Shown here: positions 21,696 to 64,000 of the stretch, piece by piece
Layout: each line of letters begins with the position of its first letter
Position numbering within the stretch: position 1 is the stretch's first letter
Virus record (IMG/VR): IMGVR_UViG_3300034068_001120
Location: 38,842 to 102,841 of that record
Direction: 5' to 3' (one strand)
DNA from: a virus
Length of the DNA: 64,000 nucleotides
Position numbers and translations under genes: made by a program
Notes under the pieces: generated by a model
What the model was told of the DNA's origin: nothing
The model's input: the letters and a program-made list of their open reading frames with translations, nothing else
Databases searched by the model: none

Positions 21696-22973
21696 TTAGA
21701 TTGGACAGATTGTTGGAGAAACACTAGACGGAACTACGGCAGGAGCAGGAGATCCTTCGGCAGGACGCATTTGAGTATCGGCATCCACCTTGGTGTAGAA
21801 CTCCATAAAGGATTGCTTTGTATCCTCGTCGAAGCGAGACACACATCGTTCAATGGCAGTCATCTTGTCTCCGAAGATTGAGAAGCCAAACACAATGTCT
21901 CGCAGTCGGCGGGTCGTGATGATGTCAGACACAACATTCTGCTTGAATGACTTGCGAATAATGTCTGCCCAATTCACCAAGTTCACAATGAATGCAGAGT
22001 CATCGACTCCAACCGACTCGGCATACTTGGTGAGAATCTTGTTCTCGGTTGCAATGCCTGCATAATCCTGCTCGTAAGTAAAGCGGAAGCGTTCCAAGAA
22101 GGCTTCGTTCATTTGGTTTGTGCCAATGAATCTGCCGTCAGAACATCCCTTGCCTTTGGTGTTGGCAGTTGCGACAACGGTGAATCCTGCAACAGGTCTG
22201 ACAAACATTCCAATCTTTGGAATAAACTTTCCCTTGCCTTCCAAGATACTTTGAAGACACATAATGAGATGAGTTCCCAAGTCCACTTCGTCGAGAAGAA
22301 GAACAGCACCTCGTTGCATTGCAACAAGAGCAGGTCCAGGACAGAATACAGTTTCGCCATTCTGCAATCTGAATCCACCGATCAATTCATCTTCGTCGGT
22401 CTGTGCAGTAAGATTCACACGAATACATTCTCGATTCAGTTGAGCGCAAACTTGCTCAACCATTGTGGTCTTGCCATTACCTGACAAGCCTGTGATGAAG
22501 ATTGGACAGAACGAACCTGACTTCACAATCTTCTTGATCTCATTGTGATATCCCCACGGAATATAATTATCATCTTCAAGAGGAATAAAAGTATTGCCGA
22601 TATCTGTTTGTGATGCAGTCTTGATAAGACTTGCGGTTGTGGTGGTGGTGCTGTTGGTGGTGGTTGGTTTCATTGGTGTAATGGTTTCTGTTGTTGTGGG
22701 TGTGATGATGGCAGGAGTAGATACTTTGTTGCGGTTGCGAGTGTTTGGAATCACGGTGATGTCTGTGTCTTTGGCAAACAATTCAGGAACAGAATAAATT
22801 CCTCTGCCTTGCTTGCGATCTTCTGACATAATCCAAGCAGGAACGATTGAGTATCCTGCTTTGCAAGCAATGGTGTTGAGCAGACTGAACTCAAACATAT
22901 CGGTTGGTTGGGTGGGAAGGAATGGTCGGGCAGATTTCACGAAGAGGAATTGTGTGGTGGTGAGTGTGTGCAT
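21696..22973 (-). CDS. MoxR/CobS-type AAA+ ATPase
   Basis: 425 aa. Start at 22973 (MHTLTTTQFLFVK) is set by AAAGGA just upstream. Residues 43-64 carry the PAWI...GRG.Y..PEL domain shared with gene 20814. A Thr-rich linker (90-115) leads to the ATPase: Walker A GLSGNGKT (162-169), Walker B VLLLDEVD (224-231), sensor 1 VVATANT. It is closest in style to CobS/MoxR proteins, which remodel a partner using ATP and work with a VWA protein; such a protein is encoded directly upstream. CobS-like genes are known in T4-like phages of cyanobacteria. Whether it acts in cobalt insertion is doubtful. Confidence 0.85.
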   Translation of the reverse strand: MHTLTTTQFLFVKSARPFLPTQPTDMFEFSLLNTIACKAGYSIVPAWIMSEDRKQGRGIYSVPELFAKDTDITVIPNTRNRNKVSTPAIITPTTTETITPMKPTTTNSTTTTTASLIKTASQTDIGNTFIPLEDDNYIPWGYHNEIKKIVKSGSFCPIFITGLSGNGKTTMVEQVCAQLNRECIRVNLTAQTDEDELIGGFRLQNGETVFCPGPALVAMQRGAVLLLDEVDLGTHLIMCLQSILEGKGKFIPKIGMFVRPVAGFTVVATANTKGKGCSDGRFIGTNQMNEAFLERFRFTYEQDYAGIATENKILTKYAESVGVDDSAFIVNLVNWADIIRKSFKQNVVSDIITTRRLRDIVFGFSIFGDKMTAIERCVSRFDEDTKQSFMEFYTKVDADTQMRPAEGSPAPAVVPSSVSPTICPI

Positions 22974-22992
22974 TGTGTCCTTTGTTATATAA

Positions 22993-23020
22993 AGTATATG
23001 TCGTAAATGGGGGTTGTCAA
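22993..23020 (-). promoter_or_regulatory. sigma70-like promoter for the AAA+ ATPase gene
   Basis: Minus strand: TTGACA (23015-23020), 16-bp spacer, TATACT (22993-22998). The transcript has a normal leader with AAAGGA, unlike the leaderless neighbours. Confidence 0.78.
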
Positions 23021-23050
23021 ATAATGCGGTCAATTTTTCAAAGATTTATT

Positions 23051-25207
23051 TTATGTTCCAAGAGTCTCGCCGATCAGGGTGGCAACCGATTTGAGTGATC
23101 CAATTGCGGATTGATTGGCAATGAATGCCTTCTGCAATTCTGTTTTGGACTTTGCCGTGTTCATATTCTTTGACACAGTTTCCAACATACCTTGAGCAGA
23201 ATAACCAATCTCTCCGTTCTGTTGACGAGCAATACGATTCTGATCAACAACGATTGCAGTATCAAATCCGTCAACTGCACATCGAACGAATCCATCTCGT
23301 TTCCAATTACAATTCGGAAGTTCTGTTGCGCCTTTGATTTGATGAGCAGGAGATCCTTTCGACCAATGCAACTTAATCCAATGAATTGCTGTTCCTGTTC
23401 GCTTTCGGATAATGTCACAGGCAATCCACACAGAAGTAGATTGAACTGTAAGAGTCTTGTCCAATTCTTCAATGTTATATTTAAGTCCTGTCACAGGATC
23501 AGAAATAATAATGTTGCTGTGTCTGTGTCGATTTGAACCATCGGAATTCTTTCTGTCACTTGGAAGAAAGAATCCATCACAAGAATCTCCGTCAGTCAAG
23601 ACAACCAAGTGAGTGGACTGAAGATTATTCTTTGCCTTGAACTCCTCAATAGTTTCCACAATTTCAATCAATGCCGAAGTGGTTGGAGTTCCACTCAAAT
23701 GATATTGATTATGCTTTGCACAATTATCAATGTCCTGCCAATTCCACAGAATACTCTTTCCCTTTTCATACTCGGCATTTGTCATCTTGGATGACAACCA
23801 ATTCAGAAGATGAATGGGATGCATTTTCACATTGTCCTTGTCGTATTTTCTATCCGTTCGACTCGACAAATCTTCTCCGCTTGAGTTGCTAAAATCATTT
23901 GGAGTCCAAGTATGATCAGAGAATGCAAAGACTTCAAATGGAATTCCACTTCGTCGGCAAAAGTCTGTGAGAATAATAAGTTGTCCAATGGTTGATCGCA
24001 TAATTCCCTGCATTGAACCCGACCAATCCAACAGAATAATAATGCCGTGATTCTTTCCTTTGGCAATCTTTACAGTTCTGCGAAAGACATCATCAGACCA
24101 ACGATAAGAATTCATTCTCAAAGTATCAAGCGCACCTGTCTTTGCAACAGAAGAACGATGAAACAAGTCCGCAGCTTGTTTTCTTGCAAAAGCCTGTGAC
24201 ATTGTTCTGCTTGCATCAGTATAATCTTTCACCTTGATTGGAGTGAGAACTTTCTGCAAATCCAAATTGTTTGGTTTGGATGCAATAATCAAATCAACAT
24301 CTTTCAGAATCATATTGTAAGTCACAATCACATTTGGATGCTTTGGTGGAAGTGTGCAAAGATAATGATTGTCCATTGGACTTGTTTTAGCAGTGCTTGC
24401 CATTTTTTCAATTGCCTGTTCCATCATCTTGTTTGTTGATGGAGTTGGCAATTGTTGCTGTTGGTGTTGCTGTTGTGGTTTCTGCTGTGAAACTTTAGAT
24501 TCTGACGATTCTTTGGAAGAAGATTCACCTTCTTCTCCTTCGCCTTCGCCTTCTCCTGCTTGTTGTTCTGCCGATGGATCATTCTCCATCTCCACAGGAT
24601 GATTCTGTCCCTGTGATTTGCAGAATTTAATAATTTTCACCGCAAGATCAACAACATTCTGAAATGATTGTGTTCGTTCCATCAGCGGAATAAACTGCGA
24701 TTCAGCGGAAGAAAAAGGAATCACAACATTAGAATGAATGCCCAATTTGAAGTGAAGATTCAACCGATCTGCAAAGCAAGCAGTCGGGAATGTGGAAGGC
24801 TTTCCAAAGAATTCCTGTGCAACAAAGTATTCATAAGCCAAGTAGAAATCTCGTTTCAAGCCTTGAAACTTGTTCTTGATAAGTCTTTCAATTCTTGCAT
24901 CTTCCACAATATTCAAATATGATTTGGCTTGTTCTGTGGAACATCCTGTTTGCTTTGCAATAAAATCCATTCCATCCACCCATTCTTTGGCAGGAGTCCA
25001 CAAAGCGTGTCCGACTTCGTGTCCAACCAACATATCATATGTTGATTCTGAAGCAGTCTCCCACAGAGGAAGAAAGAGTGTTCGTGTTTTAAGATTAAAC
25101 ATTGCAGTCGGAATCTTTTCGTGGAGAATTGTAATGTTCTCGGATGCGAGAAGTTTCGCAAGAGTAGACTTGTTTCGGACGATTGGTTGTTGTGGTGTTG
25201 TTGACAT
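23051..25207 (-). CDS. CobT-like protein: N-terminal zincin motif and C-terminal VWA domain
   Basis: 718 aa. The ATG at 25207 (MSTTPQQPIVRNKSTL) is used because the -10 box lies 6 nt upstream, making the mRNA leaderless. Residues 63-67 are HEVGH in LVGHEVGHALWTP, followed by IVEDARIERLIK (99-111), a layout of zinc metallopeptidases. A Gln/Glu/Ser-rich linker (205-255) follows. The VWA domain has a complete MIDAS: DWSGSM (394-399), then a conserved Thr region and VVLTDGDSCDG. It pairs with the MoxR/CobS-type ATPase downstream. MoxR-VWA pairs activate or remodel target proteins; the phage target is unknown. Confidence 0.85.
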   Translation of the reverse strand: MSTTPQQPIVRNKSTLAKLLASENITILHEKIPTAMFNLKTRTLFLPLWETASESTYDMLVGHEVGHALWTPAKEWVDGMDFIAKQTGCSTEQAKSYLNIVEDARIERLIKNKFQGLKRDFYLAYEYFVAQEFFGKPSTFPTACFADRLNLHFKLGIHSNVVIPFSSAESQFIPLMERTQSFQNVVDLAVKIIKFCKSQGQNHPVEMENDPSAEQQAGEGEGEGEEGESSSKESSESKVSQQKPQQQHQQQQLPTPSTNKMMEQAIEKMASTAKTSPMDNHYLCTLPPKHPNVIVTYNMILKDVDLIIASKPNNLDLQKVLTPIKVKDYTDASRTMSQAFARKQAADLFHRSSVAKTGALDTLRMNSYRWSDDVFRRTVKIAKGKNHGIIILLDWSGSMQGIMRSTIGQLIILTDFCRRSGIPFEVFAFSDHTWTPNDFSNSSGEDLSSRTDRKYDKDNVKMHPIHLLNWLSSKMTNAEYEKGKSILWNWQDIDNCAKHNQYHLSGTPTTSALIEIVETIEEFKAKNNLQSTHLVVLTDGDSCDGFFLPSDRKNSDGSNRHRHSNIIISDPVTGLKYNIEELDKTLTVQSTSVWIACDIIRKRTGTAIHWIKLHWSKGSPAHQIKGATELPNCNWKRDGFVRCAVDGFDTAIVVDQNRIARQQNGEIGYSAQGMLETVSKNMNTAKSKTELQKAFIANQSAIGSLKSVATLIGETLGT

Positions 25208-25213
25208 ATGCAA

Positions 25214-25241
25214 AGTATGCCACCAATTCAAGCAAAGTCAA
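25214..25241 (-). promoter_or_regulatory. sigma70-like promoter, leaderless start of the VWA gene
   Basis: Minus strand: TTGACT (25236-25241), 16-bp spacer, CATACT (25214-25219), then exactly 6 nt to the ATG at 25207. Confidence 0.75.
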
Positions 25242-25278
25242 ATAATGTGATCAATTTTCTAAAGATTTATTTCAAAGG

Positions 25279-25365
25279 TTATCGGACGCAGGACCCGATC
25301 AAATCCCGCCCAGTCCGATAACAGGCCGGGCTATGACGAACTATGACGAATTCGAACTATGACGG
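25279..25365 (-). repeat. promoter-upstream repeat element, copy 1
   Basis: Read on the minus strand: three CGTCATAGTT-type words (two at exactly 10-bp spacing) followed by two GTCCGATAA words in opposite orientation. It lies between the terminator at 25374 and the promoter of the VWA gene. Confidence 0.75.
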
Positions 25366-25373
25366 CAGGCAAT

Positions 25374-25396
25374 AAAAAAACCCCCTTGCGGGGGTC
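25374..25396 (-). terminator. intrinsic terminator
   Basis: Minus strand: CCCCCGCAAGGGGG followed by seven T. It ends the 66-aa gene 25402-25602. Confidence 0.88.
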
Positions 25397-25401
25397 CTGG
25401 A

Positions 25402-25602
25402 TCATGCGGTCTTCTCTATAAAGAAGTCCGTTTCATCATAATCCATTGTGACACCATCCTGCCAAGTAAGACCTGAAGTGTCTCCGTTGAATTGACATTC
25501 AACATCGTAGTGCGCTCCATTCTTCTTGACCAGATACATTGGATTTTTCCAACATACTGTGAGTTTGTTATCAACTGCGGTTTTGATTTCATCAAGTGTC
25601 AT
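25402..25602 (-). CDS. hypothetical small protein
   Basis: 66 aa, MTLDEIKTAVDNKLTVCWKN onwards. The start at 25602 is fixed by AAAGGA 7 nt upstream; the longer frame runs through the promoter. Beta-rich, acidic C-terminus (MDYDETDFFIEKTA). Single-gene unit with its own promoter and terminator. Confidence 0.68.
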   Translation of the reverse strand: MTLDEIKTAVDNKLTVCWKNPMYLVKKNGAHYDVECQFNGDTSGLTWQDGVTMDYDETDFFIEKTA

Positions 25603-25637
25603 TGTAGTCCTTTTGTTGTGGTGATCTGTACCCTTGA

Positions 25638-25665
25638 AGTATACACCAAGAATCAACGAATGCAA
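25638..25665 (-). promoter_or_regulatory. sigma70-like promoter
   Basis: Minus strand: TTGCAT (25660-25665), 16-bp spacer, TATACT (25638-25643). Drives 25402-25602. Confidence 0.72.
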
Positions 25666-25694
25666 ATAATCAGCACAATATTTGAAAGATTTTA

Positions 25695-25726
25695 TTATCG
25701 GACACGGCGGATTCAAACTATGACGG
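25695..25726 (-). repeat. promoter-upstream repeat element, copy 2
   Basis: One CGTCATAGTT word and one GTCCGATAA word (minus strand), between terminator 25735 and promoter 25638. Confidence 0.68.
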
Positions 25727-25734
25727 CAGAAAAC

Positions 25735-25762
25735 AAAAAAACCCTTTCCCGAAGGAAAGGGT
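25735..25762 (-). terminator. intrinsic terminator
   Basis: Minus strand: ACCCTTTCC-TTCG-GGAAAGGGT followed by a T-run. Ends 25769-26125. Confidence 0.88.
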
Positions 25763-25768
25763 CTCTGA

Positions 25769-26125
25769 TCAAAACTCGTCGCTGTCAGGATAATCGAATC
25801 CGAAATCGCCTTCGCTTTCGGTGATTTCCTCAAGAATGCGAGATTCGCACTCTCGTTCAATCTGATCTGCGAGATGTTCGCAGATTTCCGTGATTGCGGG
25901 ATTGCTTTTGTCGAACGACCATTCGGCAATCACTTCTCCGTCCTCATTGAACTGCATCCACGAGTCGATTTGAACACCTTGAATGGCAAATTCGTGTCCT
26001 TTTTCTGTTCCGAACTCGTGATCGAAACTTGTATCAACCTTTTCATAAAGAATTGTGCAAATTGCTGTGTAAAATGACTCTCCGACTTCAATTTCTTCTG
26101 CTTCAAATGTAATTTCTGATTTCAT
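25769..26125 (-). CDS. hypothetical acidic protein
   Basis: 118 aa, starting MKSEITFEAEEIEVGESFYT with AAGAAAG upstream; the longer frame reaches into the upstream gene. It is strongly acidic (DQIERECESRILEEITESEG, ending PDSDEF), which is common in phage proteins that mimic DNA or bind basic host proteins. No family recognised. Co-transcribed with 26145-26540. Confidence 0.65.
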   Translation of the reverse strand: MKSEITFEAEEIEVGESFYTAICTILYEKVDTSFDHEFGTEKGHEFAIQGVQIDSWMQFNEDGEVIAEWSFDKSNPAITEICEHLADQIERECESRILEEITESEGDFGFDYPDSDEF

Positions 26126-26144
26126 TTTCGTTTTCTTTCTTGGG

Positions 26145-26540
26145 TTAGTTGTTGTTTTTGCCGTCGAGTTCAATATCTTCGAGAATTTGAGCAATCATTG
26201 TGTCTGCCACATCGGAAAGAGGTGCTCGTTCCTCGTTCTGATCGTGAATTCCTGCATTTCTTGCAAGAACAAGACGAAGCATTCGCAAAGCCGAGATGGT
26301 TTGATCAAATTCCACCATTGCAAGTTTGAATTTCGTGATATCCTTGAGCATATCAGGAATTCGCTCTGAATCATCTTCAGTTTGAAACTCTCGAAGTGAT
26401 TCTTCAAGATCTTTCAGCGATTGAGTAACAGGGTTTGAGAGAATGGCATTGAATGATCCGCACAATTGGCTTCCGATCTGGTCGATGATTTCGACAAGAC
26501 GGCGGGGGTTGAGATCGAGATTGTTAGTGTTGTTGGACAT
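26145..26540 (-). CDS. hypothetical helical protein from a leaderless transcript
   Basis: 131 aa, MSNNTNNLDLNPRRLVEIID onwards. ATG at 26540 is 6 nt downstream of TATACT, and the longer frame would start upstream of the transcription start. Mostly helical with acidic patches. The coding start ATGTCCAACAACAC matches that of 26773-27072. Confidence 0.68.
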   Translation of the reverse strand: MSNNTNNLDLNPRRLVEIIDQIGSQLCGSFNAILSNPVTQSLKDLEESLREFQTEDDSERIPDMLKDITKFKLAMVEFDQTISALRMLRLVLARNAGIHDQNEERAPLSDVADTMIAQILEDIELDGKNNN

Positions 26541-26546
26541 AATAAG

Positions 26547-26574
26547 AGTATACACCGAGAATTGAACAATGCAA
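26547..26574 (-). promoter_or_regulatory. sigma70-like promoter, leaderless start
   Basis: Minus strand: TTGCAT (26569-26574), 16-bp spacer, TATACT (26547-26552), 6 nt to ATG. Confidence 0.75.
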
Positions 26575-26603
26575 ATTATGTGGTCGATTTTCCAAAGATT
26601 TTA

Positions 26604-26639
26604 TTATCGGACTCTGAGGGCTATGACGAACTATGACGG
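26604..26639 (-). repeat. promoter-upstream repeat element, copy 3
   Basis: Two CGTCATAG words at 10-bp spacing followed by GTCCGATAA (minus strand). Confidence 0.75.
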
Positions 26640-26647
26640 CAGGCAAT

Positions 26648-26674
26648 AAAAAAAGACTGGGTTCGCACCCAGTC
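26648..26674 (-). terminator. intrinsic terminator
   Basis: Minus strand: GACTGGGT-GCGA-ACCCAGTC followed by seven T. Ends the 26773-27072 unit. Confidence 0.88.
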
Positions 26675-26725
26675 CAAAGTCCTGCGGACTTGTTATTTGT
26701 TATTTTCCGAATGTGGAGAGGTAAC

Positions 26726-26759
26726 AGGGTCGGCGGGGAAACGCTCCACCGCCGACCCT
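26726..26759 (-). terminator. strong hairpin just after gene 26773-27072
   Basis: AGGGTCGGCGG pairs with CCGCCGACCCT over a 12-nt loop. There is no T-run on the minus strand, so it is more likely a 3' stabilising structure than the terminator itself, which lies 52 nt further on. Confidence 0.6.
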
Positions 26760-26772
26760 CCAACCACAACGG

Positions 26773-27072
26773 TCAGACTGCAATACCTCGCTTGACGAGA
26801 TCTTTCGACATCGCCACAAGAACTGCGTGGTTTTCTGTGAGAGCCAGAATCAACGCATCGTGCGTCTTGCTCTCGTCAATGGCTTCTTGAGCCTGACGAG
26901 TAAATGATTCTGCCTTTGCCACGAACTTGTCTTTGTTGAATTGCGCCTTCGCAATTCCCATCGCCGCATCGTCGATTGATTGTGCGAGAGGAGATCGGCG
27001 TTCTTGACGAACACTTCCGTCTTTGTTGAGTTTGCTTGATTGGGTCGTACCCGATGTTGTGTTGTTGGACAT
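26773..27072 (-). CDS. hypothetical protein from a leaderless transcript
   Basis: 99 aa, MSNNTTSGTTQSSKLNKDGS onwards, basic N-terminus and helical remainder (DDAAMGIAKAQFNKDKFVAK). ATG at 27072 lies 6 nt after TATACT. Its first codons are near-identical to those of 26145-26540 although the proteins differ, suggesting that the RNA start is under selection. Confidence 0.68.
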   Translation of the reverse strand: MSNNTTSGTTQSSKLNKDGSVRQERRSPLAQSIDDAAMGIAKAQFNKDKFVAKAESFTRQAQEAIDESKTHDALILALTENHAVLVAMSKDLVKRGIAV

Positions 27073-27078
27073 ATACAG

Positions 27079-27106
27079 AGTATACACCAAGAATTAAACA
27101 ATGCAA
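27079..27106 (-). promoter_or_regulatory. sigma70-like promoter, leaderless start
   Basis: Minus strand: TTGCAT (27101-27106), 16-bp spacer, TATACT (27079-27084), CTGTAT, ATG. Confidence 0.75.
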
Positions 27107-27136
27107 ATTATAGGATCAATTTTCTAAAGATTATTA

Positions 27137-27172
27137 TTATCGGACTCTACGGGCTATGACGAACTATGACGG
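27137..27172 (-). repeat. promoter-upstream repeat element, copy 4
   Basis: Two CGTCATAG words at 10-bp spacing followed by GTCCGATAATAATAA (minus strand). Confidence 0.75.
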
Positions 27173-27178
27173 CAAGGC

Positions 27179-27207
27179 AAAAAAAAAACTTCCCCGAAGG
27201 GAAGTTC
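27179..27207 (-). terminator. intrinsic terminator
   Basis: Minus strand: AACTTCCC-TTCG-GGGAAGTT followed by a long T-run. Ends 27235-27639. Confidence 0.9.
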
Positions 27208-27234
27208 CGACGCTGTTGCGTCTGCCCCGAAGGG

Positions 27235-27639
27235 TTATGCGATTGCGATATCCAATTCCTTGAAGGTCTGCATTCCTTCACATTGCGTCATCGTCGACTT
27301 TCCGATGATGCCCATAATTCCTTGAACGGAATCGTTCATGGACTTTCGGACTTCCTTGCGTTCTGAATCCGACATTGCCATTGCTTCCTCGGCGATGGCA
27401 ACCAATGCCGAACGCTGAAATCCTGCACGCTGTGCAAGGATGGACAGAAGTGTCCACGGACAGGCTGACTGCGGAACAGACTTCTCGAATGCTTCGCCTC
27501 GACTGTACGAGAAGTCTACGCAGAAGGTGACCGTTCCTGCCAATTCTGATCCTGAAGGAATCGTATACAGTTCCTTGACTGCACTCTTGATTGCTGTTAC
27601 GAACTCTGGGGATTGAACGATGGTGGTTGTTGTTGTCAT
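27235..27639 (-). CDS. hypothetical protein from a leaderless transcript
   Basis: 134 aa. Starts MTTTTTIVQSPEFVTAIKSA; the mRNA start ATGACAACAACAACCACC is a CA-rich run placed 6 nt after TATACT. The rest is alpha/beta with a Met/Ser/Glu-rich helix (AIAEEAMAMSDSERKEVRKS). No family recognised. Confidence 0.68.
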   Translation of the reverse strand: MTTTTTIVQSPEFVTAIKSAVKELYTIPSGSELAGTVTFCVDFSYSRGEAFEKSVPQSACPWTLLSILAQRAGFQRSALVAIAEEAMAMSDSERKEVRKSMNDSVQGIMGIIGKSTMTQCEGMQTFKELDIAIA

Positions 27640-27645
27640 ATACAG

Positions 27646-27673
27646 AGTATACTTCCAAAATCAACCTTGTCAA
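27646..27673 (-). promoter_or_regulatory. sigma70-like promoter, leaderless start
   Basis: Minus strand: TTGACA (27668-27673), 16-bp spacer, TATACT (27646-27651), CTGTAT, ATG. Confidence 0.78.
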
Positions 27674-27702
27674 ATTATATGGCAAAGAATTAAGAATTAT
27701 TA

Positions 27703-27753
27703 TTATCGGACTCTGGGGCTATGACGAACTATGACGGATTCGAACTATGACGG
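27703..27753 (-). repeat. promoter-upstream repeat element, copy 5
   Basis: Three CGTCATAG-type words (two at 10-bp spacing) and GTCCGATAATAATAA (minus strand). Confidence 0.75.
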
Positions 27754-27775
27754 CGAACCGAAAAAAAAATTTCTG

Positions 27776-27808
27776 GAATAAAAACCCCTCGGCACGATGC
27801 CGAGGGGC
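27776..27808 (-). terminator. intrinsic terminator
   Basis: Minus strand: CCCCTCGGCA-TCG-TGCCGAGGGG followed by TTTTTATT. Ends 27832-28695. Confidence 0.88.
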
Positions 27809-27831
27809 TATGCAACCAACTGACGATTGTG

Positions 27832-28695
27832 TTAGACTCGCACTGCGAATCCGTTTGCGGTCGCATATGCCATCGATTCATCGTAGGCTCGATGCGATGT
27901 CGGTCCCTTCCAAGACAATCCGACTACCGAATTCTTCGGATCAAGAAAACGCAGATCGGTAGCCGTTCCATCGATTACGGTATATCCGTTCCAAGTCTTC
28001 GGCAATTCGGTAGCCGATTCAATACCGAACACTACGGCAACATTGTAGCCTGATTCAAGGATACTCAACGCATCGGATTCATTATCCTCGCTTCGTGAGA
28101 ATGTAAGATGATAATTCGATGGAGTTTTTCCGACTCTCGATGCGATTTTCGTATAATCGTAAAACTGAACGGTAGAGTATCGTTCGAACAATTCGCTCCA
28201 TACCTTTTCCCAAAGAATGTCACTGAATGCGTTCATACGAACCGATGGCGTAACTCCACGCTTGGCGCAACGCTTGACGAACGATGCTATCTCTCTATCA
28301 ATCGCTTGTAGTGCCATTAGCGCAGTCGATCCTCCTCCAAACAATTCTCTAGTTCTTGCAATTCTTGCGGAGCGTACCGAATTGAGCACGCTTGGATTAT
28401 TAGCGCATCCAACTCCCAATACTGAATGTCCCGCATTGATACCTACGCATCCCTGCCTACAGAATCCAGCCTTTGGGCATATATCGATACCGCTTGTGTT
28501 AGCAGGGGAAAGACTCAATGAGAGCGTAGCGTGCCCTTGCGCCGAACCTAGGAAAAGTTTCGGATTACTATCTTCCTTCGACATTATCGACCTCTTGCGA
28601 GTACCGATAGGCGCACCTTTGCGCTCGTATTCTGCGATGGATTCTCGCAGATTAGAGTAGGATAGAACAGAGGATGGTAGTTGTGTTAGTTGCAT
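27832..28695 (-). CDS. GP88-type phage protein
   Basis: 287 aa. The pattern CPKAGFCRQGCVGINAG, then RTRELF, RMNAFSDILWEKV, VQFYDYTK, YHLTFSRSE, NVAVVFG and VIDGTATDLRFLDP with VVGLSWKG is that of the GP88-domain family first named in mycobacteriophages. The clustered Cys residues suggest a metal or Fe-S site; the biochemical function is unknown. The ATG at 28695 is 6 nt after TATAAT, so it is leaderless; an ATG two codons earlier would lie within the promoter spacing. Confidence 0.82.
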   Translation of the reverse strand: MQLTQLPSSVLSYSNLRESIAEYERKGAPIGTRKRSIMSKEDSNPKLFLGSAQGHATLSLSLSPANTSGIDICPKAGFCRQGCVGINAGHSVLGVGCANNPSVLNSVRSARIARTRELFGGGSTALMALQAIDREIASFVKRCAKRGVTPSVRMNAFSDILWEKVWSELFERYSTVQFYDYTKIASRVGKTPSNYHLTFSRSEDNESDALSILESGYNVAVVFGIESATELPKTWNGYTVIDGTATDLRFLDPKNSVVGLSWKGPTSHRAYDESMAYATANGFAVRV

Positions 28696-28701
28696 ACTCA
28701 T

Positions 28702-28729
28702 ATTATACATCGTAAATCGATGATGTCAA
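28702..28729 (-). promoter_or_regulatory. sigma70-like promoter, leaderless start
   Basis: Minus strand: TTGACA (28724-28729), 16-bp spacer, TATAAT (28702-28707), 6 nt to the ATG at 28695. Closest of the set to the consensus. Confidence 0.8.
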
Positions 28730-28760
28730 ATAAAGGGTACGATTATTTGAATATTTTTTA

Positions 28761-28838
28761 TTATCGGACGCTGGTCATAGTTCGCTAGTCATAGTACCGC
28801 AGATCGACTCCCGCCACCACCACAAAAACTATGACGAA
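28761..28838 (-). repeat. promoter-upstream repeat element, copy 6 (inverted words)
   Basis: GTCCGATAA plus two TCATAG words in the opposite orientation to a further CGTCATAGTT word at 28828, so this copy forms an inverted repeat. Copy 10 has the same arrangement. Confidence 0.68.
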
Positions 28839-28841
28839 TAC

Positions 28842-28919
28842 AAAAAAAGAGGATGCCTCTGCGGTGGCATCCTCCTTGTCGCTCGCGTGTGCGACGGTTT
28901 ATTTGTTTTCCTTCCTGAC
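28842..28919 (-). ncRNA. candidate ~78-nt small RNA
   Basis: A consensus promoter (28926-28953) is followed only 45 nt later by a strong terminator, GAGGATGCC/GGCATCCTC with seven T (28842-28874). The space between has no usable start codon: it contains AGGAAGGAAAACAAATAA and a GC-rich stretch. The unit has the full promoter-terminator layout of its gene-bearing neighbours, so it makes either a small RNA or is what remains after a gene was lost. Confidence 0.55.
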
Positions 28920-28925
28920 AACTAG

Positions 28926-28953
28926 AGTATACAACAGATTCGGACAATGTCAA
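28926..28953 (-). promoter_or_regulatory. sigma70-like promoter of the small RNA unit
   Basis: Minus strand: TTGACA (28948-28953), 16-bp spacer, TATACT (28926-28931). Confidence 0.75.
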
Positions 28954-28982
28954 ATAAAAGGTTAAAGAATTATAATATTGTA

Positions 28983-29010
28983 TTATCGGACTCTCGTGAA
29001 CTATGACGAA
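28983..29010 (-). repeat. promoter-upstream repeat element, copy 7 (short)
   Basis: One CGTCATAGTT word and GTCCGATAATA, spaced by 9 bp (minus strand). Confidence 0.68.
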
Positions 29011-29013
29011 ACC

Positions 29014-29042
29014 AAAAAGAAAAGACCCCCTTGCGGGGGTCC
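29014..29042 (-). terminator. intrinsic terminator
   Basis: Minus strand: ACCCCC-GCAA-GGGGGT followed by CTTTTCTTTTT. Nearly identical copies occur at 29491 and 30041. Confidence 0.85.
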
Positions 29043-29045
29043 TGG

Positions 29046-29318
29046 TCAGGAGTCTCTCTTTGCGACTCCTGCTTTGAATCCTTCCCTCCAAGCCTCATCG
29101 AGTGCATCTGCACTCGTTGGGCGATTGTTCACCAACCAATTCCTGCAATCTTGCAGTTCGGCTTCCAAATCCGAGATTTGAAATTGATAATCCTTCAACT
29201 GCTCGAGCGATTCACGAGTTTGAATTTGTTGCGCCAATTGGGATCTCTCCCATCGCAAGACATCCAACCGTTGTTTTTTCGATTGAAATAGTATGGTCAT
29301 TTGTTGTAATACGGTCAT
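29046..29318 (-). CDS. hypothetical coiled-coil protein with structured leader
   Basis: 90 aa, MTVLQQMTILFQSKKQRLDV onwards; strongly helical coiled coil (SLEQLKDYQFQISDLEAELQ) and a basic end. Start at 29318 is fixed by AAAGGAAC. One of five neighbouring genes with the same type of hairpin leader. Function unknown. Confidence 0.68.
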   Translation of the reverse strand: MTVLQQMTILFQSKKQRLDVLRWERSQLAQQIQTRESLEQLKDYQFQISDLEAELQDCRNWLVNNRPTSADALDEAWREGFKAGVAKRDS

Positions 29319-29387
29319 TCTAGTTCCTTTGTGTCCCGCAGGGACAGATGCAATCGTAAGGGATTGAAACATTCAATCCTCATCGAC
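29319..29387 (-). ncRNA. structured 5' leader, copy 1
   Basis: Hairpin 1 GGATTGAA-TGT-TTCAATCC (29361-29379) and hairpin 2 TGTCCC-TGC-GGGACA (29332-29346) precede the ribosome-binding site. Compared with the other copies, paired positions change together. Confidence 0.7.
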
Positions 29388-29393
29388 ACCTAC

Positions 29394-29421
29394 AATATAC
29401 AACGGATTTGGGCAATGTCAA
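29394..29421 (-). promoter_or_regulatory. sigma70-like promoter
   Basis: Minus strand: TTGACA (29416-29421), 16-bp spacer, TATATT (29394-29399). Confidence 0.75.
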
Positions 29422-29450
29422 ATAAAAGGGTAAAGAATTCTAATATTGTA

Positions 29451-29487
29451 TTATCGGTCAAAGGGGGCTATAACAAACTATGACGAA
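29451..29487 (-). repeat. promoter-upstream repeat element, copy 8 (degenerate)
   Basis: CGTCATAGTT, a mutated second word (TGTTATAG) at 10-bp spacing, and GACCGATAA (minus strand). Confidence 0.65.
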
Positions 29488-29490
29488 ACC

Positions 29491-29518
29491 AAAAAGAAAA
29501 GACCCCCTTGCGGGGGTC
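29491..29518 (-). terminator. intrinsic terminator
   Basis: Minus strand: GACCCCC/GGGGGTC type stem followed by TTTTCTTTTT. Ends 29524-29871. Confidence 0.85.
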
Positions 29519-29523
29519 CTGAA

Positions 29524-29871
29524 TCACTTGGCGTAGATGTCTGCGCCAGATCGAATCCCCCATCCTCTCCTCGCCACTGTTTGGTGGCGAGTGGTGGTTC
29601 TCGAGTACTTGTCATTGGGAATCACGCATCTTGGGCACTCTCCGTCAAGATAGACCCACATAATTGGTGTTCCGTAACTATAAACAACATATTGAATGTT
29701 GTCTGTGGAAAGGAACAATCGAGCCATTTCTGGGGAAAGTCGACCCGTCCCTCTACCCACTCGAACAGTACTCGATCCGTACTCTCCGAATGAGAGTGAT
29801 CCAGTGTGAGTCTTTCCGTTTTCAAATTTGCTGATTGCCACAAACGCATTATGAAGTGAGATATTAGCCAT
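29524..29871 (-). CDS. hypothetical protein (DUF8033-like)
   Basis: 115 aa, MANISLHNAFVAISKFENGK onwards. The motifs VRVGRGTGRLSPEMARLF, YVVYSYGTPIMWV and NDKYSRTTTRHQ resemble a small family common in phages and bacteria (recalled as DUF8033). Function unknown. Start fixed by AAAGGAAC; single-gene unit with leader copy 2. Confidence 0.7.
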   Translation of the reverse strand: MANISLHNAFVAISKFENGKTHTGSLSFGEYGSSTVRVGRGTGRLSPEMARLFLSTDNIQYVVYSYGTPIMWVYLDGECPRCVIPNDKYSRTTTRHQTVARRGWGIRSGADIYAK

Positions 29872-29937
29872 TCTAGTTCCTTTGACCCGCAGGGTCAGGT
29901 GCATCATAAGGGATTGAAACATTCAATCCTCATTGAC
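29872..29937 (-). ncRNA. structured 5' leader, copy 2
   Basis: Hairpin 1 GGATTGAA-TGT-TTCAATCC and hairpin 2 TGACCC-TGC-GGGTCA (29883-29897). Hairpin 2 differs from copy 1 by a swap of one base pair (T-A to A-T). Confidence 0.7.
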
Positions 29938-29943
29938 AACCAC

Positions 29944-29971
29944 AATATACTACCGATTTCGCCGATGTCAA
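29944..29971 (-). promoter_or_regulatory. sigma70-like promoter
   Basis: Minus strand: TTGACA (29966-29971), 16-bp spacer, TATATT (29944-29949). Confidence 0.75.
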
Positions 29972-30001
29972 ATAAAGAGGTCGATTTTTCAAAGAATATT
30001 A

Positions 30002-30038
30002 TTATCGGTCAAATAGGGCTATGACGAACTATGACGAA
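30002..30038 (-). repeat. promoter-upstream repeat element, copy 9
   Basis: Two CGTCATAG words at 10-bp spacing and GACCGATAATAAT (minus strand). Confidence 0.73.
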
Positions 30039-30040
30039 AC

Positions 30041-30069
30041 CAAAAAGAAAAGACCCCCTTGCGGGGGTC
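30041..30069 (-). terminator. intrinsic terminator
   Basis: Minus strand: GACCCCC-GCAA-GGGGGTC followed by TTTTCTTTTT. Ends 30076-30474. Confidence 0.87.
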
Positions 30070-30075
30070 CTGGGG

Positions 30076-30474
30076 TTAATCGAAGTGTGTCCCGCAGTGA
30101 CCGCAATGCTCACTTTGACGGGTGCACCCGCAGTGGGGGCACTCGTACCAACCGTCGCCGTACTCTCGTCGAGGCTCGACCTCGACCTCGGACTCCTCCA
30201 TCACTAATGATGGAGACTCGATGATGCCCCTTTCTCGAAGCATCCGCTCGAGCACGATGAACTCGTCCATCACCCTCGACTTGATGGCTGCTGAAAAAAC
30301 ACTTTTTTCCCGATCATCCAGTGCCTCCACGAGATTCGTGGGGGCGGTCATTTGAATGACCGCAGAGAGTCTCATCATTTGGATGTGGATCGGCAATTTG
30401 CCGATCCACTCAACTGCGCCGACTGCATTGAGATGCGCCCTCAATGCCATACCTTCAGGGGTTGATTCATTCAT
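30076..30474 (-). CDS. hypothetical protein with C-terminal zinc ribbon
   Basis: 132 aa, MNESTPEGMALRAHLNAVGA onwards. The N-terminal ~85 residues are helical; the end carries CPHCGCTRQSEHCGHCGTHF, a four-cysteine zinc ribbon. Such ribbons often bind nucleic acid or RNA polymerase. Visibly more GC-rich than genes outside the array. Single-gene unit with leader copy 3. Confidence 0.7.
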   Translation of the reverse strand: MNESTPEGMALRAHLNAVGAVEWIGKLPIHIQMMRLSAVIQMTAPTNLVEALDDREKSVFSAAIKSRVMDEFIVLERMLRERGIIESPSLVMEESEVEVEPRREYGDGWYECPHCGCTRQSEHCGHCGTHFD

Positions 30475-30544
30475 CGTAAGATCCAATCCGACCCGCAGGG
30501 TCAGGTGCATCGTAGGCAACTTGAAACATTCAAGCCCGCCTCGA
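30475..30544 (-). ncRNA. structured 5' leader, copy 3
   Basis: Hairpin 1 is CTTGAA-TGT-TTCAAG (C-G replaces the A-T pair of copies 1, 2 and 4), hairpin 2 TGACCC-TGC-GGGTCG, where the outer pair becomes T-G. Confidence 0.7.
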
Positions 30545-30550
30545 CACCAA

Positions 30551-30578
30551 CAATATACACTCAATTTCGCCGATGTCA
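30551..30578 (-). promoter_or_regulatory. sigma70-like promoter
   Basis: Minus strand: TTGACA (30573-30578), 16-bp spacer, TATATT (30551-30556). Confidence 0.75.
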
Positions 30579-30610
30579 AATAAAAGGGTAAAGAATTACA
30601 AGATTCTTTG

Positions 30611-30671
30611 TTATCGGACTCTAGCGTCATAGTTCGCTGCAACGACCCAGCCTCCACCAAACTATGACGAA
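30611..30671 (-). repeat. promoter-upstream repeat element, copy 10 (inverted words)
   Basis: GTCCGATAA, then GCGTCATAGTTCGC in the reverse orientation (plus strand) facing a CGTCATAGTT word on the minus strand about 40 bp away; the arrangement matches copy 6. Confidence 0.66.
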
Positions 30672-30674
30672 CAC

Positions 30675-30703
30675 AAAAAAGAAAAGACCCCTTTCGGGGT
30701 CCT
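30675..30703 (-). terminator. intrinsic terminator
   Basis: Minus strand: ACCCC-GAAA-GGGGT followed by CTTTTCTTTTTT. Ends 30708-30899. Confidence 0.85.
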
Positions 30704-30707
30704 GATA

Positions 30708-30899
30708 TCAAGCGTACCACTTCTTTACTTTCTTGAACTCTTCGACAAGATCCATCTCGCCGAGATGGATCAATCGAGCCAACAGAATATGATCCGCCAT
30801 TCTGTGTGCTTGCTCGATGTCGCCCTCACAGGAGGAGCGAGAGATTTGGCGCATCTGCGCCAATCCTGTTTCTTTCGTCATTTCTTGAATTTCGTCCAT
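30708..30899 (-). CDS. hypothetical small helical protein
   Basis: 63 aa, MDEIQEMTKETGLAQMRQIS onwards, helical throughout with a basic aromatic end (KKVKKWYA). Start fixed by AAGGAAT; single-gene unit with leader copy 4. Function unknown. Confidence 0.65.
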   Translation of the reverse strand: MDEIQEMTKETGLAQMRQISRSSCEGDIEQAHRMADHILLARLIHLGEMDLVEEFKKVKKWYA

Positions 30900-30965
30900 T
30901 CTAATTCCTTTGTCCCGCAGGGACATTTGCATCGTAAGGGATTGAAACATTCAATCCTCATCGAC
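30900..30965 (-). ncRNA. structured 5' leader, copy 4
   Basis: Hairpin 1 GGATTGAA-TGT-TTCAATCC and hairpin 2 TGTCCC-TGC-GGGACA, as in copy 1. Confidence 0.7.
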
Positions 30966-30971
30966 ACCCAC

Positions 30972-30999
30972 AATATACACCAAGAATCGCCGATGTCAA
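30972..30999 (-). promoter_or_regulatory. sigma70-like promoter
   Basis: Minus strand: TTGACA (30994-30999), 16-bp spacer, TATATT (30972-30977). Confidence 0.75.
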
Positions 31000-31030
31000 A
31001 TAAAAGGGTAAAGAATTCCAAGATTCTTTG

Positions 31031-31068
31031 TTATCGGTCAAATAGGGCTATGACGAACTATGACGAAC
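31031..31068 (-). repeat. promoter-upstream repeat element, copy 11
   Basis: Two CGTCATAG words at 10-bp spacing and GACCGATAA (minus strand). Confidence 0.73.
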
Positions 31069-31070
31069 AC

Positions 31071-31097
31071 AAAAAAGAAAAGACCCCTTTCGGGGTC
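31071..31097 (-). terminator. intrinsic terminator
   Basis: Minus strand: ACCCC-GAAA-GGGGT followed by CTTTTCTTTTTT. Ends 31104-31514. Confidence 0.85.
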
Positions 31098-31103
31098 CTG
31101 GGA

Positions 31104-31514
31104 TCAGGACTTGACCCCGACTTGCGCCCAATCGGAATTGGGTGGGTATACCCACCCGCAGTGGCGGAAACTCGAGGTCTTCGTTGTTCTTCCGTCAGGA
31201 AGAACCTCCTCCACAGAGACTCGCTCTGTGAAAGAGAAGCAAACTTCCCATCCTTCTGCCTCGAGCAGGGATTGGAGCGGTCCCATCAAATACGGGGCTC
31301 CGCCGATCATGACGAAGTCAAAATCTTCGCAATCCGCATTCATCCGAAGCAGTCGGACGATGCTTTCGCATCGCGTTGCGATTTCGATGCGTGAAGGGGG
31401 GGTGGCGAATGTTAACAATTCGCACAATAACTTGCGCCCCTCGGGGAGAAAATCTACCACTCCATCCTCAATTTGTTCCTTTGTGGCGAGATGTTGGGTG
31501 AGGTTCGGTATCAT
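31104..31514 (-). CDS. hypothetical protein
   Basis: 136 aa, MIPNLTQHLATKEQIEDGVV onwards, alpha/beta with an acidic patch (MNADCEDFDFVMIGG) and a C-terminal part with WVYPPN. Ribosome-binding site AAAGGAG. Single-gene unit with leader copy 5. No family recognised. Confidence 0.68.
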   Translation of the reverse strand: MIPNLTQHLATKEQIEDGVVDFLPEGRKLLCELLTFATPPSRIEIATRCESIVRLLRMNADCEDFDFVMIGGAPYLMGPLQSLLEAEGWEVCFSFTERVSVEEVLPDGRTTKTSSFRHCGWVYPPNSDWAQVGVKS

Positions 31515-31583
31515 AAAGACTCCTTTTGACCCGCAGGGTCATTTGCATCGTAGGCAACTTGAAACATTCAAGCCCGCCTCGAC
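31515..31583 (-). ncRNA. structured 5' leader, copy 5
   Basis: Hairpin 1 CTTGAA-TGT-TTCAAG as in copy 3, hairpin 2 TGACCC-TGC-GGGTCA as in copy 2. Confidence 0.7.
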
Positions 31584-31589
31584 ACCAAC

Positions 31590-31617
31590 AATATACATCA
31601 AGAATTGACGATGTCAA
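31590..31617 (-). promoter_or_regulatory. sigma70-like promoter
   Basis: Minus strand: TTGACA (31612-31617), 16-bp spacer, TATATT (31590-31595). Confidence 0.75.
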
Positions 31618-31648
31618 ATAAAAGGGTAAAGAATTCAAAGATTCTTTG

Positions 31649-31683
31649 TTATCGGCCAAAATGGGCTATGACGAACTATGACG
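31649..31683 (-). repeat. promoter-upstream repeat element, copy 12
   Basis: Two CGTCATAG words at 10-bp spacing and GCCGATAA (minus strand). Confidence 0.72.
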
Positions 31684-31688
31684 AATAC

Positions 31689-31732
31689 AAAAAGAAACCA
31701 TTCTCTCCGTGATCGTTTCGGAGAGAATGGTT
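31689..31732 (-). terminator. intrinsic terminator
   Basis: Minus strand: AACCATTCTCTCCG pairs with CGGAGAGAATGGTT over a short loop, then TCTTTTTG. The longest stem of the series. Confidence 0.88.
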
Positions 31733-31733
31733 G

Positions 31734-31907
31734 TCAAGTGTCGGCGGTCCTGAGTCGATGCGAGCGTGCGGGTGGAAGGCAGGGGAGGGGTGTCAAACGC
31801 AGGTGGGGTGCTTCCGTGATCAAACTTGGCACTTCAAGCGTGTTGATTTTCTGCAAATCCAAGCCGAACGAGGCATCAAGCGAGCCAAACCGAATCACTT
31901 GATTCAC
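31734..31907 (-). CDS. possible 57-aa ORF with GTG start (or untranslated RNA)
   Basis: Between a consensus promoter and the long terminator lies a GTG-initiated frame of 57 codons (VNQVIRFGSLDASFGLDLQK..., Pro-rich end). There is no ATG and no ribosome-binding site, and the GTG falls about 2 nt before the predicted transcription start. It could be a decayed gene or an RNA of about 220 nt. Confidence 0.3.
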   Translation of the reverse strand: MNQVIRFGSLDASFGLDLQKINTLEVPSLITEAPHLRLTPLPCLPPARSHRLRTADT

Positions 31908-31911
31908 CTAC

Positions 31912-31939
31912 AGTATACACCGAAAAACGCCGATGTCAA
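31912..31939 (-). promoter_or_regulatory. sigma70-like promoter
   Basis: Minus strand: TTGACA (31934-31939), 16-bp spacer, TATACT (31912-31917). Last promoter of the array. Confidence 0.75.
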
Positions 31940-31970
31940 GTAAAGAGCCTGATTATTTCAAAGAATATTA

Positions 31971-32013
31971 TTATCGGACCTCACCCGCACCTATCGGAGT
32001 ACAGTGTTATCGG
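31971..32013 (-). repeat. promoter-upstream repeat element, copy 13 (partial), start of a gene-free stretch
   Basis: Two (G)GTCCGATAA/GCCGATAA words without the CGTCATAG part. From here to the plus-strand gene at 32232 (about 260 bp) I see no gene: first GC-rich sequence, then an AT-rich leader with a late promoter. Confidence 0.6.
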
Positions 32014-32211
32014 CCCCTTCCCCACCCAGCCCTAGTGGGTCTAGCAGATCGAGCAATCCCGTGGGGAGGAAATTAAAATATTCACCCCCCGTCAATTCTG
32101 TACAACATTTATCGAACCTGCTTTTGAAAATTTTTTTTGCGTAAAAATTTCACGCCAATATCCTTTTCAAATATTCTTCATATACTCTTTTTCCAAGAAA
32201 TAATCAGTTAG

Positions 32212-39475: not shown

Positions 39476-39522
39476 TTTACCGAATATTTCATTTGGCACA
39501 TTAAATTGTGCTAAATAATAGC

Positions 39523-40263
39523 ATGAAGAGATATGTTCTCGCTCTTCTGTTAGTGGTTGCACTCGTCTGCATTCCAGCCTGTGTCGGGGGGACTCCCGCT
39601 TCACTTGTTGCACCACCCCCAGTATCTCATACAAAGCCCGCAGAGCCGTTCCTACGAGGTTTCACACCAATACCAGACTCCGAGGAGACTGGAGTTGGTT
39701 GTTTGATGACAGAACAGCACGAATTAATAGGAAGTGCTGTTCTTATCGGAAAAAAGCATATTCTCACTGCAGGACATTGTTTTGACGATACTCAAGCATA
39801 TTGGTTTGTCACCAACTGCAAAGAATATAAAATTTCCAAGCAAATAATACATCCAATTTTTAAATTGGCGGGTATGTTATTTAATGATTTGGCTATTGGT
39901 GTACTAGAAACGGAATGTGACGAAATTCCCATTGCAATACCCACCAAACCAATATTATTTTATCAAGGAATGGGATTAACTGCAATCGGACATGGCGGAG
40001 GAATACGCAAAAAAAGCAATCCAGGAACTATTTGGTATTACGGAACATTAGAAGAAGAACCAATAAGTTTTAAAATGATACCAATAAGTGGAACTATTTG
40101 GTTTGGAGATTCTGGTGGTGCAATTATAGATTCCTCGGGAACTCTTGTTGGTATTATATCTTCAATGAAAAGTCATCGTGGAACATTATTTGAAAATTCT
40201 GCAATTAGAGTTGATAGATTTTTACCTTGGATTACACAAATCATTTCGGAGACATCACAATGA
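39523..40263 (+). CDS. secreted trypsin-like serine protease with lipoprotein signal
   Basis: 246 aa. Starts MKRYVLALLLVVALVCIPAC: a lipoprotein signal with lipobox I-P-A-C (Cys20); a GTG five codons upstream is in frame but would only extend the basic end. The catalytic triad is complete: His85 in LTAGHC, Asp122 in FNDLAIG, Ser197 in GDSGGAI. Fold S1 (chymotrypsin-like). After export it would be anchored at the periplasmic side of a membrane. Phage-coded S1 proteases are rare; it could cut a host envelope protein, a receptor or a rival's entry protein. A GCTAAATA late-like box overlaps the upstream start. Confidence 0.86.
   Translation: MKRYVLALLLVVALVCIPACVGGTPASLVAPPPVSHTKPAEPFLRGFTPIPDSEETGVGCLMTEQHELIGSAVLIGKKHILTAGHCFDDTQAYWFVTNCKEYKISKQIIHPIFKLAGMLFNDLAIGVLETECDEIPIAIPTKPILFYQGMGLTAIGHGGGIRKKSNPGTIWYYGTLEEEPISFKMIPISGTIWFGDSGGAIIDSSGTLVGIISSMKSHRGTLFENSAIRVDRFLPWITQIISETSQ

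Positions 40264-59501: not shown

Positions 59502-64000
<4,499 letters not shown>

Follow-up and report, generated by a model that had tools for sequence, protein, structure and literature searches.

Why would five neighboring phage genes that encode unrelated proteins begin with the same pair of RNA hairpins? The question is raised by a gene cluster on the minus strand of a 64,000-nucleotide (nt) stretch of viral DNA (hereafter the window), which comprises bases 38842-102841 of the 102,841-base IMG/VR record IMGVR_UViG_3300034068_001120. An earlier note on this DNA had placed two-hairpin leaders before the genes starting at 29318, 29871, 30474, 30899 and 31514, and all five were confirmed on the minus strand (Table 1). 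The leader is real and probably a functional RNA; the mechanism offered below is a proposal.

Conserved hairpins in five leaders

Sequence comparison establishes a shared leader, present in five copies only, in which pairing has been kept through change and the hairpins are preferentially conserved. A covariance model trained on these leaders recovers exactly five copies in the 102.8-kb record, at 81-94 bits, and the next-best match (18 bits) lies antisense to one of the leader regions. Measured from the predicted first transcribed base (+1) to the ATG, the leaders are 66-71 nt long; of the range of 66-70 nt given previously, the lower limit stands and the upper one does not. As claimed, the five proteins are unrelated, with no meaningful blastp match among them and a mean pairwise identity of 29% in the first 60 coding bases.

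The hairpin arms and the constant loops, UGU in hairpin 1 and UGC in hairpin 2, were found where the earlier note had them, but hairpin 1 is not the 6-bp stem described there. Folding gives a hairpin of 35-37 nt with 15-16 pairs, which has a GUCG...CGAU base and the same apical part, UUGAA-UGU-UUCAA, in every copy. Its middle stem occurs in two types. Type A (copies 29318, 29871 and 30899) has AUGAGGA opposite UCCCUUA and type B (30474 and 31514) has AGGCGGGC opposite GUUGCCUA; both pair, with the bulge placed differently. In copy 29871, moreover, the fourth pair of hairpin 1 is A-U, not G-C. The third pair of hairpin 2 is either U-A or A-U, and its outer pair is U-G in copy 30474. The list of stem changes drawn up before was correct in the arms it gave, but incomplete, as pair 4 of copy 29871 and the whole middle stem of hairpin 1 were missing from it.

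When each hairpin 1 type is folded separately, all stem pairs are intact in all five leaders, and the within-stem differences come to three compensatory events and one wobble, with pairing kept throughout. Two hairpin 1 columns are scored as broken in the RNAalifold table because the A and B middle stems are aligned there by sequence. Fold z-scores of the leaders lie between -2.1 and -3.4. Chimeras with mixed arms mostly fold much worse, their stems falling short of the natural ones by ~3-12 kcal/mol (-3.4 and -2.3 vs -7.4 kcal/mol for hairpin 2; -4.0 and -9.3 vs -11.9 and -16.2 kcal/mol for hairpin 1). Under random substitution, the chance of all pairs remaining intact would be 0.10 for hairpin 1 (two changes), 0.13 and 0.33 for hairpin 2, and 0.065 for the type B middle stem; the rough joint chance of ~3e-4 is a product that treats the events as independent and leaves recombination between copies out of account. 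Independent events are few because each stem in the earlier note amounts to one changed pair in two states.

The leaders form the 3' part of a ~200-nt repeated intergenic cassette, whose pairwise matches are mostly 79-92% identical. Since they lie within a duplicated cassette, the five copies are paralogues. Mean pairwise identity among them is 100% in the -35 and -10 boxes, 85% in hairpin 1 and 89% in hairpin 2, compared with 59% in the promoter spacer, 67% in the linker, 66% in the 45 bases upstream and 55% between hairpin 2 and the ATG. The hairpins thus exceed the neighboring segments in identity and have been retained beyond the effect of recent duplication alone. Both loops and the unpaired linker bases GCA are invariant in all five copies. 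A selected RNA structure, of which the compensatory changes had been called the hallmark, is the best reading of the hairpin conservation, the lack of broken pairs, the poor chimeras and the start at the predicted +1; about three events in paralogues of one phage, however, do not justify the word "hallmark".

Predicted transcript start and proposed role

The leaders follow a strong, host-like sigma-70-type promoter (TTGACA/TATATT), and in all five the TATATT box is separated by 6 bases from the first base of hairpin 1. In five other genes of the cluster (window 25200-28710, minus strand), the ATG lies exactly 6 nt past a -10 box of the form TATACT, TATAAT or CATACT (at ~28695, 27639, 27072, 26540 and 25207); one of these genes encodes a large VWA-type protein. 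Such spacing suggests that these neighbors are transcribed as leaderless mRNAs. Transcription would therefore start seven bases after the box, so that hairpin 1 begins at the predicted +1. By this prediction hairpin 1 stands at the transcript 5' end in all five leaders, where stabilizing stem-loops are placed, and base 1 is paired in each of them (unpaired probability 0.09-0.22), while it is unpaired at a probability of at least 0.85 in 11 of the 13 further predicted transcripts that were examined. Hairpin 2 adjoins the Shine-Dalgarno (SD) sequence, which remains mostly unpaired in the predicted fold, and a good SD stands ahead of the downstream ATG in four of the five copies.

We tentatively favor the explanation that the leader is a 5'-terminal stem-loop which would shield the mRNA from 5'-end-dependent decay and insulate the ribosome-binding site (RBS). 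A T4-like phage would have copied one regulatory cassette ahead of five different small genes, with the leader acting as RNA. If transcription starts at the first base of hairpin 1, the mRNA 5' end would be base-paired, 5'-end-dependent decay (of the RppH/RNase E or RNase J type) could be hindered, and each one-gene mRNA would be stabilized. Hairpin 2, placed at an SD that is left mostly single-stranded, may allow similar translation whatever gene follows and may shield the RBS from upstream sequence. Base-pairing at the 5' terminus is known to stabilize the Escherichia coli ompA and papA mRNAs, and Bacillus subtilis RppH acts only where two or more 5' nt are unpaired (PMC3997798; PMC7509114). 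T4 mRNA is degraded throughout infection by host RNase E, a main nuclease (PMC3014915).

Several points weigh against this explanation. The decay enzymes are taken from E. coli and B. subtilis and may not be those of the host, and the position of +1 is derived from promoter spacing and the putatively leaderless neighbors. The constant loops and linker bases are more than a pure stabilizer requires. Only about three compensatory events were found, all within one phage, and type A folds as well on the antisense strand, so folding energy alone cannot pick the strand. If the explanation is true, promoter, terminator and stability/translation leader have been packed by a T4-like phage into a single copyable unit, through which newly acquired small genes would be expressed immediately. 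The leadered genes adjoin the apparently leaderless block of the same cluster, and both expression strategies could be compared within one genome.

Alternative explanations and known systems

The strongest rival is an RNA-binding protein operator, because the loops and the linker GCA are constant. A phage or host protein would recognize these bases and switch the five genes jointly, and it is consistent with this that they are identical in all copies while the stems covary, that hairpin 2 adjoins the RBS and that one element is common to unrelated genes. T4 gp43 offers a precedent, as its operator is an upstream hairpin with a conserved loop close to the RBS (PMC3014915), but that operator governs one autoregulated gene, whereas five genes and two hairpins are concerned here. 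No candidate regulator was identified, and the copies are recent paralogues only, in which constant loops may simply be inherited; we regard a joint operator as somewhat unlikely. It is distinctly less likely that the palindromes have no RNA function and were copied with the recently duplicated cassette, either kept symmetric by quasipalindrome templating or acting as DNA sites. The entire cassette is indeed duplicated and the type A palindromes fold equally on both strands, but the hairpins are more conserved than the neighboring cassette sequence, and the middle stem of hairpin 1 has changed on both arms and is still imperfect: its bulge is shifted and the transcribed strand has G-U pairs, both of which symmetry repair would eliminate. 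A shared DNA operator, for its part, would preserve sequence and not pairing. Quite improbable is a put-like RNA, in which the nascent leader would bind RNA polymerase and bring about read-through of the cluster terminators. HK022 putL is a ~70-nt RNA of two stem-loops directly past an early promoter (PMC9378689), of which sequence-similar copies stand behind different promoters; the leaders match it in size, in having two hairpins and in beginning at the predicted transcript start, and each gene here is followed by intrinsic terminators. However, both put stems are long and have non-canonical pairs (internal to the long stem II), whereas hairpin 2 is a perfect 6-bp triloop hairpin, and the leader touches the RBS and has no Rfam match. 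The terminator comes right after one gene per transcript, and as each downstream unit has its own promoter, read-through is unnecessary. That the leader represents a modular phage RNA element of a new class, with a dedicated partner, be it a put-like RNA that remodels the RNA polymerase of the host or a shared operator through which a phage RNA-binding protein controls a five-gene regulon, also appears somewhat unlikely.

The leader might instead be translated, as GAGG precedes an AUG that lies across the loop of hairpin 1, and the short frame starting there shares the gene's frame in type A and is separate in type B. The type A AUG was seen at window 29353-29372 and equivalents, and open frames 29046-29372, 29524-29922 and 30708-30950 start there. 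We consider translation highly improbable because each of the six differences that separate copies 29871 and 30899 in this stretch is an amino acid change; the frame is also lost in type B copies, and the downstream ATG has its own good SD in most copies. Scarcely credible is an RNA anti-CRISPR (Racr), suggested by a stretch, GTTTCAATCC...GTCCCTGCGGGAC, that resembles a type I CRISPR repeat. It matches a Bacteroidetes CRISPR-like array (WSXX01000009.1, repeat GTTTCAATCCACGCGCCCCTGCGGGACGCGAC; covariance model up to 20 bits), and solitary repeats in viruses are often located directly downstream of a promoter (PMC10651486). Yet the array was picked out by a pattern containing those very letters and is judged a by-product of the search, no Rfam CRISPR family was matched at E up to 10, the GTTTCAATCC block is absent from type B copies, and the repeat-like stretch is located in mRNA leaders. 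The transcribed leader strand would, moreover, presumably be the reverse complement of the type I-C CRISPR RNA repeat, which counts against this idea as well.

The stabilizing, insulating leader that we favor would be an elaboration of known arrangements. Promoter early stem-loop (PeSL) cassettes of T4-like phages were reportedly treated by Arbiol in 2010 and Comeau in 2014. They are described in PMC4503421 as promoter-terminator cassettes of T4-like phages, and they resemble the present cassette as repeated intergenic units of promoter and terminator stem-loop that separate small ORFan genes. Different genes have apparently been shuffled behind the PeSL units, and the five unrelated genes that follow one cassette in this single phage may have come about in a similar way. 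Judged by sequence, the present locus shares with PeSL a T4-like myovirus genome and a repeated intergenic unit with terminator stem-loop and promoter. Compared with PeSL cassettes as described there, it adds a transcribed, structured 5' leader that reaches the RBS, together with GTCATAG and CCGATAA elements. To that extent the cassette is a modest variation on known phage regulatory cassettes, with the structured leader as the addition. Stem-loops of ompA, papA and B. subtilis aprE likewise lie at or near the mRNA 5' end, upstream of an open RBS; unlike them, the leader consists of two tight triloop hairpins, known from sequence and reused in five mRNAs of one phage. Cluster K mycobacteriophages have repeated inverted repeats and a start-associated sequence (ESAS/SAS) before many unrelated genes. 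There is little support for mRNA hairpin formation by ESAS repeats (PMC3203893), whereas pairing is kept in the leaders, and the sequences are unrelated: SAS has 5'-GGGATAGGAGCCC before the start codon, which was not found between hairpin 2 and the ATG, where CAAAGGAACTAGA and variants occur.

Source phage, searches and neighboring features

The record contains T4-type structural genes, tail and terminase genes included. Its terminase is 58% identical to that of Methylophilales phage Melnitz and 56% identical to those of marine cyanophages of the T4 superfamily (96-99% coverage), and by these genes the source is an unclassified T4-like phage with a myovirus genome. The named phage homologues of the 29524-29871 protein come only from Gordonia, Streptomyces, Rhodococcus and Microbacterium phages; along with the leaderless genes, they hint at an actinobacterial host, which would be odd for a T4-like phage. 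The best matches of a class II ribonucleotide reductase are mixed and do not settle the host question.

The only other carrier found in IMG/VR, contig 3300034168_000564, belongs to this very phage (99.98% identity across 12.6 kb). IMG/VR searches with the exact two-hairpin pattern, the GTCATAG repeat and VWA and GP88 protein queries returned only this phage, and a pattern of linker plus hairpin 2 returned it and two unrelated matches. Scattered single matches to a CCGATAA-plus-promoter pattern were taken as chance. The covariance model gave no convincing match in 44 loci serving as controls or outgroups, 80 MoxR-like-gene loci, the whole records of 12 of the latter and eight phage genomes, where the best E outside the CRISPR array was 0.07. 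Rfam 15 gave no leader match up to E = 10 and found only tRNAs in the window.

Table 1. Leaders, cassette half and leadered genes (window positions)
Feature	Position	Strand	Hairpin 1	Linker	Hairpin 2	RBS stretch	-10	-35	Details
Leader of gene 29046-29318	29319-29387	minus	29353-29387, type A	29347-29352	29332-29346, UGUCCC/GGGACA	29319-29331	29394-29399, TATATT	29416-29421, TTGACA	69 nt; covariance model 93.7 bits
Leader of gene 29524-29871	29872-29937	minus	29903-29937, type A, compensatory GUCA/UGAU base	29898-29902	29883-29897, UGACCC/GGGUCA	29872-29882	29944-29949	29966-29971	66 nt; 87.7 bits
Leader of gene 30076-30474	30475-30545	minus	30509-30545, type B	30504-30508	30489-30503, UGACCC/GGGUCG, wobble outer pair, extra C-G pair below	30475-30488	30552-30557	30574-30579	71 nt; 81.1 bits
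Leader of gene 30708-30899	30900-30965	minus	30931-30965, type A	30926-30930	30911-30925, UGUCCC/GGGACA	30900-30910	30972-30977	30994-30999	66 nt; 92.5 bits
Leader of gene 31104-31514	31515-31583	minus	31547-31583, type B	31542-31546	31527-31541, UGACCC/GGGUCA	31515-31526	31590-31595	31612-31617	69 nt; 83.4 bits
Upstream half of one cassette	29446-29522	minus							Intrinsic terminator stem 29501-29518; GTCATAG-type repeats; CCGATAA 29451-29457
Open reading frame, 90 amino acids	29046-29318	minus							No confident family; weak PHROG 5589
Open reading frame, 115 amino acids	29524-29871	minus							PHROG 32689 (unknown function)
Open reading frame, 132 amino acids	30076-30474	minus							No phage homologue found
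Open reading frame, 63 amino acids	30708-30899	minus							No confident family
Open reading frame, 136 amino acids	31104-31514	minus							43% identity with a protein of unknown function from Rhodothermus phage RM378

The cassette runs from the terminator of the preceding gene through GTCATAG repeats, the CCGATAA element and the promoter to the leader. Each of the remaining leaders is preceded by an upstream block similar to the one in Table 1, except that the GTCATAG stretch has diverged in the cassette of 30474 and the terminator differs in that of 31514. The cluster also has genes with the upstream part of the cassette but without the leader. About a dozen promoters in window 22900-32050 (minus strand) share upstream CCGATAA and GTCATAG repeats before the -35 box; these elements are possibly binding sites of some phage or host activator. 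Two further minus-strand transcripts may be non-coding. At window 28842-28919, a cassette promoter precedes a transcript of ~78 nt that lacks a credible gene but contains a hairpin and a terminator with an SD-like AAGGAGGATG in its stem, which makes it a candidate small RNA or emptied cassette. At window 31690-31911, the first cluster promoter is followed by ~220 nt with only a possible GTG-started frame of 57 codons and a terminator, a candidate non-coding RNA or very short gene.

Elsewhere in the window, positions 39508-40263 on the plus strand encode a trypsin-like protease (Pfam Trypsin, 6e-14) whose signal sequence is of the lipoprotein type. Long collagen-like repeats of 9-nt units (GPTGPV-type) occupy 60520-62150, in a probable tail-fibre gene, and more of them lie near 63300-63960.

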